A stretch of 64,000 nt of DNA, from assembly GCF_015291645.1 (NCBI RefSeq), contig NZ_CP030055.1, positions 3,844,001-3,908,000 on the forward strand. The letters run 5' to 3'. Of this stretch, positions 40,674 through 44,873 are shown in pieces (the stretch's first letter is position 1; the number at the start of each line of letters is the position of its first letter). Below the pieces are notes generated by a model that was given only the letters and a program-made list of their open reading frames with translations, made no database searches and was not told where the DNA came from. The position numbers were made by a program, and so were the translations under genes. The DNA is from Bradyrhizobium sp. CCBAU 53340 (GTDB lineage Bacteria; Pseudomonadota; Alphaproteobacteria; Rhizobiales; Xanthobacteraceae).

Positions 40674-42575
<1,902 letters not shown>

Positions 42576-42625: not shown

Positions 42626-43765
42626 ATGAGCGATGGCAAGACCGGACTGCAACTGCGTTCGCTGATCAGGAAGAGCGGTGAACTTGAAATCTCGCTTGTC
42701 GATGTGCCGACCCCCGAGCCTGCGGACGACGAGGTCGTCGTCCGCATCGAGGCGGCGCCGATCAACCCCTCCGACCTTGGCCTGCTCGTCGGCGCCGCCG
42801 ACATGAGCACGGCCAAGGCATCAGGCACGAAGGATGCGCCGGTCATCACCGCGAAGGTGCCTGATGGTGCGATGCGCGCGATGGGGGCGCGGATCGACCA
42901 GTCCCTGCCTGTCGGCAATGAGGGCGCCGGCGTCGTCATCAAGACCGGCTCCTCGGACGCCGCGAAGGCGCTGATGGGCAAGACGGTGTCGATGATCGGC
43001 GGCGCTATGTATTCGCAGTACCGCACCTTGAAGGCGAGGGACTGCCAGGTGCTGCCCGACGGCACGAGTGCGGCCGAGGGCGCCTCCTGGTTCGTCAACC
43101 CGCTCACCGCACTCGGCATGACCGAGACGATGCGGCGCGAAGGTCACAAGGCCTTGGTGCACACCGCAGCCGCCTCCAATCTCGGCCAGATGCTGAACAA
43201 GATCTGCATCAAGGACGGCATTCCGCTGGTCAACATCGTGCGCAGCAAGGAGCAGGCGGAGATTCTGCACAAGATCGGCGCAAAATACGTGGTCGATTCC
43301 AGCGCGCCAAGCTTCCTCGACGACCTCACCAATGCGCTGGTCGAGACCGGCGCCACCATCGCTTTCGACGCCATCGGCGGCGGCAAGCTTGCCGGCGACA
43401 TTCTCAACTGCATGGAAATCGCGATCAACAAGACCGCGAAGGAATACAGCCGCTACGGCTCCAGCGTGCACAAGCAGGTCTATGTCTACGGCGCGCTCGA
43501 CATTCGTCCCATCGAGCTGCCGCGCGGCTTCGGCATGGCCTGGGGCGTTGGCGGCTGGCTGCTCACTCCGTTCCTGCAGAAGATCGGGCCTGCCGACATC
43601 GCGCGGCTGCGTCAGCGCGTCGTGAACGAACTGAAGACGACCTTTGCCAGCCACTACACCAAGGTGGTGTCGCTGCAGGAGACGCTCGAACCCGCCAACA
43701 TCGCGGTGTACGCCAAACGTGCCACCGGCGAAAAATTCCTCATCAACCCAAATAAATCTTCGTGA
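42626..43765 (+). CDS. Medium-chain (zinc-type) dehydrogenase/quinone-oxidoreductase-like protein
   Basis: This 379-residue MDR-superfamily protein has an N-terminal GroES-like fold (VVVRIEAAPINPSDLG, LPVGNEGAGVVI) and a Rossmann domain. The Rossmann region reads ALVHTAAASNLGQMLNKIC and IAFDAIGGGKLAG. The zinc-ligand Cys residues of alcohol dehydrogenases are not evident, so it resembles quinone-oxidoreductase or enoyl-reductase-like members. A GGGGAGGA ribosome binding site precedes the ATG. It starts 50 nt after eno. Confidence 0.85.
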   Translation: MSDGKTGLQLRSLIRKSGELEISLVDVPTPEPADDEVVVRIEAAPINPSDLGLLVGAADMSTAKASGTKDAPVITAKVPDGAMRAMGARIDQSLPVGNEGAGVVIKTGSSDAAKALMGKTVSMIGGAMYSQYRTLKARDCQVLPDGTSAAEGASWFVNPLTALGMTETMRREGHKALVHTAAASNLGQMLNKICIKDGIPLVNIVRSKEQAEILHKIGAKYVVDSSAPSFLDDLTNALVETGATIAFDAIGGGKLAGDILNCMEIAINKTAKEYSRYGSSVHKQVYVYGALDIRPIELPRGFGMAWGVGGWLLTPFLQKIGPADIARLRQRVVNELKTTFASHYTKVVSLQETLEPANIAVYAKRATGEKFLINPNKSS

Positions 43766-43798
43766 TCTGCGACGGCGGGTGATCAAAAAGAGGTCTTG

Positions 43799-43868
43799 CC
43801 TTCTGAGCGAAGCGGAAGATTATTCCGCCGCGTTGAAAGCGGAAAAACCGCAACGCGCGCTCAGAAGG
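43799..43868 (+). ncRNA. Putative structured 5' leader: three-way junction covering a Shine-Dalgarno
   Basis: An 11-bp outer stem (43799-43809 with 43858-43868, CCTTCTGAGCG/CGCTCAGAAGG) encloses two hairpins. The first is GCGGAA-gatta-TTCCGC at 43812-43828. The second is CGCGTT/AACGCG at 43829-43857, topped by GCGG-aaaaa-CCGC with a GAAA bulge on its 5' side. Only two bases (43810-43811) are unpaired at the junction. The 3' arm includes part of AGAAGGGG, the ribosome binding site of the ATG at 43879. This is the layout of a translation-controlling RNA. I do not recognise a known class. Confidence 0.55.
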
Positions 43869-43878
43869 GGACATCTTC

Positions 43879-44873
43879 ATGATCGATCTCAATCGCCGTC
43901 ATCTGCTCGCAGGCGCGGCCGCCATCAGTGCGGCTGCCGCGACCGGCCTCCGGCCGTCCACCGCCAATGCCGCAGTGCCGCAAGCCGGCGCTCAGGCACC
44001 GGGCTTCTACGTTACAAGGTCGGCAGCTTCGAGTGCACCTCGATAAATGACGGTGCACGCAGCTTTCCGATGCCGGACAAGTTCGTCACGAACATCCCAA
44101 AGGACGAGGCGCTTGCCGCCGCCGATGCCGCCTACATGCCGAAGGGGATGGTCACTGTCCCGTTCAATCCGCAGCTGATCAACACCGGCTCCAAGCTCGT
44201 GCTGATCGATACCGGCAACGGCGTCGCCAACCTGGAGCCCAGCAAGGGCGCAGTCGGCCGTACCCTGCAAAACCTGCAGGCCGCCGGCATCGACCCGAAG
44301 AGCATCGACGTCGTGCTGCTCTCGCATCTGCATCCGGACCACACCAACGGCATCCGCCTGGCCGACGGCTCGATGGCCTTCCCGAACGCCGAGATCATGG
44401 TGCCGCTGAAGGATTGGGAGTTCTGGGCCAGCGAGGAGAACGCGGGCAAGGCCTCCAGCGACATGATGAAGAACTACTTCGCCAACGTGAAGAAGACCTT
44501 CGCCGGCATCGAGTCCAAGGTGACGAAGTACGAATGGGGCAAAGAGGTCGTATCCGGCATCACCTCGATCGGAACGCCCGGCCACACGCCCGGCCATACT
44601 TCATTCGCGGTCGCCTCGGGCGACAAGAAGGTGTTGATCCAGTCGGACGTCACCAACATTCCGGAACTGTTCCTCCGCAATCCGGACTGGCACGTCGCCT
44701 TCGACACCGACGGCGCGATGGCGCAGGAGACCCGTCACAAATTCTACGACATGGCAGCGGCGGAGAAGGCGACCGTCATCGGTTTCCACTTCACCTTCCC
44801 CTCGGTTGGCCATGTCGAGAAGGATGGCGCGAAGTATCGCCTGATCCCGTCGGCCTGGAATCCGACGATCTGA
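43879..44873 (+). pseudogene. MBL-fold metallohydrolase with N-terminal signal, frameshifted
   Basis: ATG 43879 opens a frame encoding a twin-arginine-like signal (LNRRHLLAGAAAISAAAATG, then AAVPQAGAQAPGFY). It runs out of frame after the TTCTAC ending at 44010. The rest continues in the -1 register to TGA 44873: YKVGSFECTSINDGARSFPM, LINTGSKLVLIDTGNG, the zinc motif LLSHLHPDHTNG, GTPGHTPGHTSF and VIGFHFTFPSVGHVE. Inserting one base near 44010 restores an uninterrupted, exported metallo-beta-lactamase-fold hydrolase of about 331 residues. Either the gene is broken, or the deletion is a sequencing error. The complete 3' part argues for a recent event. Confidence 0.8.

Follow-up and report, generated by a model that had tools for sequence, protein, structure and literature searches.

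The 70-nt element at 43799-43868 of the window (the whole 64,000-nucleotide stretch analyzed here) is real, conserved, and present at a single locus, where it folds over the Shine-Dalgarno (SD) sequence of an MBL-fold metallo-hydrolase gene. Since its 5' half resembles a promoter of that MBL gene, the fold may silence just the long messages coming in from upstream, rather than sense a signal. We therefore propose a promoter-choice translational gate, in the style of phage T4 I-TevI, that would mute read-through from the eno-qor genes, and we give this explanation an even chance of being correct.

RNA folding of 43799-43868 returned a minimum free energy structure identical to the centroid, at -39.2 kcal/mol (z = -7.2). 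The mean of 200 shuffles of the same stretch was -18.57 kcal/mol (sd 2.86), and 0 of the 200 were as low as the native sequence, which bears out the idea of the initial annotation that the SD is masked by a real structure. Its outline of three nested, perfectly paired stems of 11, 6, and 6+4 bp with two junction bases was reproduced as well: all pairs in the three stems are matched, and the unpaired bases at the junction are two A residues. The 3' arm does lie over the ribosome binding site, as had been noted, but the distance given, 8 nt before the start codon, needs correction, as we found a gap of 9 nt between the SD (43863-43870) and the ATG at 43880. In a 105-row alignment, the upper 4 bp of hairpin B (GCGG/CCGC) are nearly invariant, with 98.3% of cells paired; alignment of the lower 6 bp is poor, and the pairing count omits them. 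The coordinates of all features are collected in the table.

Table. Features at the element locus and in its flanks, in window coordinates.
Feature	Position	Strand	Remarks
qor-like gene (zinc-type dehydrogenase / quinone-oxidoreductase-like)	42626..43765	+	379 aa, from the ORF list; upstream neighbor
Hairpin at the qor-like stop codon	43765..43780 (region 43763-43785)	+	ATCTGC-GACG-GCGGGT; 6 bp in the window; relatives reach 9-10 bp
Predicted -35 element CTTGCC (hexamer TTGCCT 43796-43801)	43795..43800	+	conserved block; 0-1 parsimony steps per column in 103 leaders
Outer stem	43799-43809/43858-43868	+	11 bp; arms form the 100% complementary inverted repeat I3
Outer stem, 5' arm CCTTCTGAGCG	43799..43809	+	overlaps the predicted -35 element and the spacer
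Hairpin A	43812-43817/43823-43828 (43812..43828)	+	6 bp; overlaps the predicted -10; 91.9% of cells paired
Predicted -10 element GATTAT	43818..43823	+	16 bp after TTGCCT; relatives have GAACAT, GACAAT, GAAGAT, or other variants
Hairpin B	43829-43834/43852-43857 plus 43839-43842/43848-43851 (43829..43857)	+	6+4 bp, 4-nt bulge
Putative transcription start	43830 (plus or minus 2)	+	placed from the -10 position only, about 7 nt past it
Outer stem, 3' arm CGCTCAGAAGG	43858..43868	+	takes in most of the SD
SD AGAAGGGG	43863-43870	+	overlapped by the outer-stem 3' arm; 1.1 parsimony steps per column
MBL-fold metallo-hydrolase gene with Tat signal	43880..44873	+	ATG at 43880; downstream of the element

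A DNA search of 265 same-genus genomes gave a match in 123, and 111 of these matches cover the element at the same place (rows L002-L111 plus G105, whose leader is absent from the leader comparisons). Within the source genome, both the DNA search and a covariance model (E up to 10) placed the element at one position, the second covariance-model row being the same place on the opposite strand. When the model was run on 149 family genomes, strong matches (94 bits or more) occurred only in four genus members, and 13 genomes of other genera had weak matches (E 3.4e-4 to 0.09, at most 25.3 bits). Among the named ortholog loci, 80 of 108 were kept, 73 of which bear the name Bradyrhizobium. The DNA search of a plasmid collection yielded just a 25-base match (E 0.4). 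None of 4227 Rfam families reached its gathering score in the window; for the element itself, relaxed thresholds gave weak matches only, far under the gathering scores, and in 11 relatives they gave one sub-threshold GA-cis match (L120) and nothing usable. As such, with a single place and with strong matches limited to the genus, the element is no dispersed repeat, and the searches turned up no RNA family of wide range. The main alternative in the initial annotation, a mobile palindromic repeat, is thereby excluded for the source genome, where sequence and covariance model agree on one place. Its failure to recognize a class agrees with the lack of an Rfam family match, and the link to one downstream family that it raised is present, with the element at one locus before one gene family in the genus.

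In six relatives (L112, L113, L114, L115, L116, and L117), the match breaks off inside the 5' half of the element or directly past it. Five of these six genomes (G033, G176, G031, G032, and G243) lack an MBL match at E 1e-60, and the sixth, G121 (L117), has a partial one. The deletions in L112-L117 appear to end near the promoter-like block described below.

The block that overlaps the 5' arm follows the pattern CTTGC[C/G]TT-N15-GANNAT. Allowing up to two mismatches, it recurs at fixed spacing, 77-109 nt ahead of the ATG, in 119 of 125 resolved ortholog leaders: 112 match exactly, 6 differ at one position, and 1 differs at two. Shuffles give 0.39 of 125. For this count, 125 of 141 loci were resolved and 16 failed the start-codon rule, 6 loci without an intact leader having been excluded beforehand. 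The leaders that lack the block are L010, L119, L132, L137, L138, and L139, with near variants in L010 and L132. The block is also kept in lineages without the stem, and divergent orthologs, which lack the stem, mostly keep it. In 23 divergent block-bearing leaders (chosen by the same pattern), CTTGC, TT, and the final AT show no variation, and 10 of the 15 spacer positions have a top base below 0.8. In addition, the block persists next to a different upstream gene in L143 (two mismatches) and L147, and in G204 (L146 reverse complement, positions 16 and 1416) it stands before both an apparent qor-like start and the MBL gene, an arrangement that suggests, from the sequence, co-regulation of the two genes. 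This persistence beside another neighbor, together with the G204 copy, is how a promoter would behave, and we take the block as the MBL gene's probable promoter.

By hand count, TTGCCT-16-GATTAT has 8 of 12 matches to an E. coli-style consensus, for which the scanner threshold is 9; the scan with that consensus reported no site at the block, which is no textbook promoter. Nor does the block resemble the EcfF consensus or the ecfQ promoter of B. japonicum as given in the available portion of that report (PMC3420878). The implied leader of roughly 50 nt is compatible with the typical B. japonicum 5' UTR, which the accessible text of another study puts at 20-40 nt (PMC4842269). In the source genome, the block pattern has one exact match (the element locus), 2 matches with one mismatch, and 51 with two, a total of 54 compared with 16 for the reversed pattern. 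A second exact pattern gave 43 hits in 42 of the 265 genomes. By their coordinates, 28 of these hits fall at MBL genes, the qor-like gene of G204 accounts for one, and the remaining 14 are elsewhere; the second pattern misses the element locus because its tail is incompatible with the TTCCGC of the window group. We claim no regulon sharing the block. In the divergent leaders L133, L140, L141, L145, L148, and L120, the block spacer is palindromic, such as GTTCTCCCG-GCAA-CGGGAGAAC; the arms differ between some lineages and are still complementary, and may form an operator or an RNA hairpin.

If transcription starts near 43830, the MBL gene's own mRNA would lack the 5' arm and would carry hairpin B at its 5' end. 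We compared the predicted cost of opening the SD in read-through RNA and in own-promoter RNA, which is 15.8 versus 5.6 kcal/mol in the window. For the 103 window-group leaders, the median costs are 11.0 (read-through) versus 5.0 kcal/mol (own start), while for the 22 divergent leaders they are 3.7 versus 3.4 kcal/mol; the two costs differ by at least 5 kcal/mol in 66 of the 103 and in 2 of the 22. The median probability that the SD is unpaired follows the same order, at 0.04 (read-through) versus 0.37 (own) in the 103 leaders and 0.325 versus 0.42 in the divergent ones. The difference, small in the divergent leaders, is thus a property of the stem-bearing group. Under a strict cut (read-through below 0.2, own above 0.5), just 11 of 103 leaders pass, since the short mRNA retains local pairing; the SD of the own-promoter mRNA is thus predicted to be partly open only (5.0 kcal/mol).

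We next consider how the outer stem has evolved. Alignment A1 holds 105 distinct leaders, with identical ones counted once and L111 and L118 excluded. There, the outer helix is 95.5% paired and nearly invariant, and its sole change on both sides is at column pair 20/78 (C-G for G-C, 8 rows). For the whole structure, the number of pairs changed on both sides (2 versus 2.1 in shuffles) and the number of further pair types (11 versus 12.2) are at the shuffled level, whereas the cells changed on both sides (11 versus 4.3) and the covariation score (0.051 versus 0.042) are both above all 500 shuffles. RNAalifold did not choose the outer stem on A1, so covariance model R1, built on the RNAalifold structure, is without it, and R2 was given the structure explicitly. 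L111 (genome G047) has a 12-bp stem, CCTTCTCGGTCC/GGACCGAGAAGG, whose distal half is rewritten on both sides and fully compensated; the MBL gene tree places L111 inside the stem-bearing group, closest to L082 (11 bp) and L060 (6 bp). The covariation test put forward in the initial annotation therefore has a divided outcome, with the near invariance of the outer stem and its single doubly changed pair on one side and the compensated stem of L111 on the other.

Of the 103 window-group leaders, 90 have a stem of 9 bp or longer, compared with 0 of the 22 divergent ones. Stem scoring resolved 125 of 147 loci; the other 22 failed the pattern or the start-codon rule. Of these, 7 are near relatives whose block or start is variant, 6 lack an intact leader, and 9 are divergent or partial. 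In the 90 leaders that reach 9 bp, a match that long arises in 0-2.5% of 200 shuffles of the 3' segment. On the MBL tree of 127 rows (3 divergent loci unplaced), the stem state, again at 9 bp or more, switches 8 times or more. The 93 rows with a stem are all contained in a single group of 108 rows, whose support (88/72) is not strong, and 0 of 19 rows outside it have the stem. Within the group, the stem was lost in several lineages that kept gene and block (15 of 108 rows). A qor-like neighbor was detected for 73 of the 90 stem-bearing leaders and 27 of the 35 others, so the link between stem and neighbor is weak; some of the misses are search failures, one example being L100, whose match to the DNA query begins at base 8 and takes in the qor end.

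Parsimony counted column by column (103 of the 105 A1 rows) gave 0, 2, 0, and 0 steps for GAGC, the part of the 5' arm outside the -35, and 3, 2, 3, and 6 for its partner GCTC, outside the SD. The comparison columns gave 13 and 14 steps right after the 5' arm, 11, 15, and 8 ahead of the 3' arm, and 3, 6, 23, 11, 11, 11, 11, and 4 from the SD to the ATG; GAGC and GCTC thus change less than most surrounding columns in these 103 leaders. The 11th outer-stem pair varies freely (16 and 14 steps). CGCCG, the right arm of hairpin A and outside the outer stem, took 0, 0, 0, 2, and 0 steps and is as slow as GAGC; therefore, a slow rate alone is no proof of pairing. In divergent leaders, the GAGC positions vary (top base 0.39-0.74). 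In leaders whose 3' arm has lost its full-length pairing (L096, L100-L102, L105-L109), the 5' arm is unchanged, and members of the group without the stem retain the 5' GAGC unpaired. Altogether, the slowness of GAGC/GCTC and the L111 stem, as sequence comparisons, favor selection on pairing; the unpaired GAGC, the free 11th pair, the slow CGCCG, and the repeated loss of the stem argue against it.

Upstream of the element, the enolase ORF, so named from its sequence, ends at 42575, and 50 bp separate it from the qor-like gene, whose product scores below the Pfam cut-offs for ADH_zinc_N (25.2 bits; cut-off 31.8) and ADH_N (22.8; cut-off 23.5) and under that of NCBIfam quinone_pig3 (62.8 bits; cut-off 296.8). 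The promoter/terminator consensus scan found no intrinsic terminator before the MBL gene and no terminator-type T-run after the hairpin at the qor-like stop codon. A raw count puts perfect pairing of 6 bp or more at this hairpin in 82 of 115 relatives, mostly with the same layout, and its arms often differ among relatives yet remain complementary; it is possibly an mRNA 3' end or a partial block to read-through.

Downstream, the MBL ortholog L004 matches Pfam Lactamase_B (71.9 bits, above the cut-off of 22.7) and TAT_signal_seq in NCBIfam (21, above 16.7), where lactonase_AidB reaches 168.5 bits, less than its cut-off of 360. The MBL gene of the source genome has a frameshift near codon 40, with a homolog match from residue 39 of 332 and stops in the ATG frame, so that the copy at 43880-44873 is either a pseudogene or the product of a sequencing error. 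Most listed MBL orthologs have no comparable break. Among MBL rows of at least 70% identity, internal stops are shown in two (G030 and G121), and matches start well past the start codon in G104, G105, G246, and G121, the first two at contig ends. Four family genomes (G305, G362, G378, and G393) have arrays of at least three adjacent paralogs of the MBL-fold hydrolase. In the available extracts on strain USDA 110, bll4793 is numbered next to the enolase gene bll4794 (PMC6320959) and belongs to a list of 68 genes whose expression follows a reciprocal symbiosis pattern (PMC6321122); we tie bll4793 to the region 42626-43765 / 43880-44873 by presumed analogy only.

Taken together, these elements would work as follows under the proposed gate. 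The outer stem is predicted to sequester the SD in every transcript that holds the whole element. MBL transcription would start near 43830 from the block, giving an mRNA with hairpin B and a more exposed SD, whereas eno-qor read-through RNA would include the 5' arm, fold into the three-way junction, and support poor MBL translation. The MBL enzyme would consequently be made from its own promoter and be insulated from the upstream unit, with the promoter strand doubling as the anti-SD arm. The broader statement, that in much of one genus the promoter DNA serves as anti-SD and only transcripts from that promoter are translated, is one that we advance tentatively.

The main rival of this gate is an inherited by-product, in which the promoter motif CCTTCT and the SD motif AGAAGG are conserved separately and are complementary by chance, the longer stem being inherited and without a role. 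We consider it somewhat unlikely. It can account for the 6-7 bp match that survives without the long stem and consists largely of these motifs (L043, L060, L061, and L101), for a stem repeatedly lost while the gene is retained, for the thin covariation, and for a GAGC that is retained even where unpaired. However, it does not predict that GAGC and GCTC, outside both motifs, are slow on both sides, that the rewritten L111 stem is still perfect over 12 bp, or that shuffles of the 3' segment so seldom reach the stem length of the 90 leaders. The strong, long stem with the SD within one arm would also fit a regulated read-through leader, whose junction is opened or cut by RNase III, a helicase, an sRNA, or a translating ribosome to make MBL expression conditional, and the second hairpin at the qor stop codon, with its differing but complementary arms, points the same way. 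Against such a leader, there is no conserved leader reading frame, one-base indels shifting the frame between relatives, and an own-promoter route would make the switch unnecessary; we regard it as improbable. A leader peptide from the TTG codon at the 5' arm was dropped, its frame being broken by those indels.

The initial annotation had likened the layout, with its masked SD, to a riboswitch or an RNA thermometer, and an unknown class of either now seems very improbable to us. The conserved bases are mostly those of the promoter-like block, the helices (helix B and the CGCCG right arm of hairpin A), and the SD, with no aptamer-like core or recognizable ligand pocket seen, and Rfam matches none. 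Warming from 30 to 42 C lowers the predicted opening cost from 16.7 to just 15.1 kcal/mol, which is nearly flat, and the SD pairing is perfect, unlike that of ROSE elements. Moreover, if the promoter is placed as it seems, the gene's own mRNA would be without the structure. Palindromic repeats are common in bacterial genomes, and the element is palindromic in make-up, but a dispersed repeat inserted at this locus has next to no probability given its single place in the source genome and the restriction of strong family matches to four genus members.

If the promoter-choice gate is correct, self-insulating promoters of this kind would let closely spaced genes stay independent with no terminator between them, as a general strategy, and promoter sequence by itself could insulate neighbors in compact genomes from one another at the translational level. 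It would also mean that a perfect SD-masking leader may be mistaken for a riboswitch although the native mRNA never holds the structure.

Our literature searches found no paper on this leader, which is no proof of absence. A parallel is given by the transposase leaders of IS10 and IS50, which are protected from outside transcription in that read-through RNA folds and hides the ribosome binding site; unlike those leaders, the Bradyrhizobium locus shows no mobile element and is a single orthologous site. The ROSE thermometer, whose first member came from Bradyrhizobium, pairs its SD imperfectly with a U(U/C)GCU motif, according to the available part of PMC3669281. The element resembles it in having the SD within the 3' arm of a multi-hairpin leader and differs from it, as there described, in its perfect 11-bp stem, the lack of predicted melting, and a downstream gene that does not encode a small heat-shock protein. 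Gating of a ribosome binding site by promoter choice has already been described for phage genes: in the accessible sections of PMC2988022, the sites of T4 I-TevI, I-TevII, I-TevIII, and segB and of phage Aeh1 mobE are sequestered in upstream-initiated transcripts and freed by an internal promoter. As with T4 I-TevI, a stable structure is predicted here to hide the site in long transcripts, and a gene-close promoter would give short ones open to translation. The Bradyrhizobium leader, for which no temporal promoter switch is known and whose start site is deduced, departs from I-TevI in belonging to a chromosomal bacterial gene and in that the host-type promoter block is itself the anti-SD arm.
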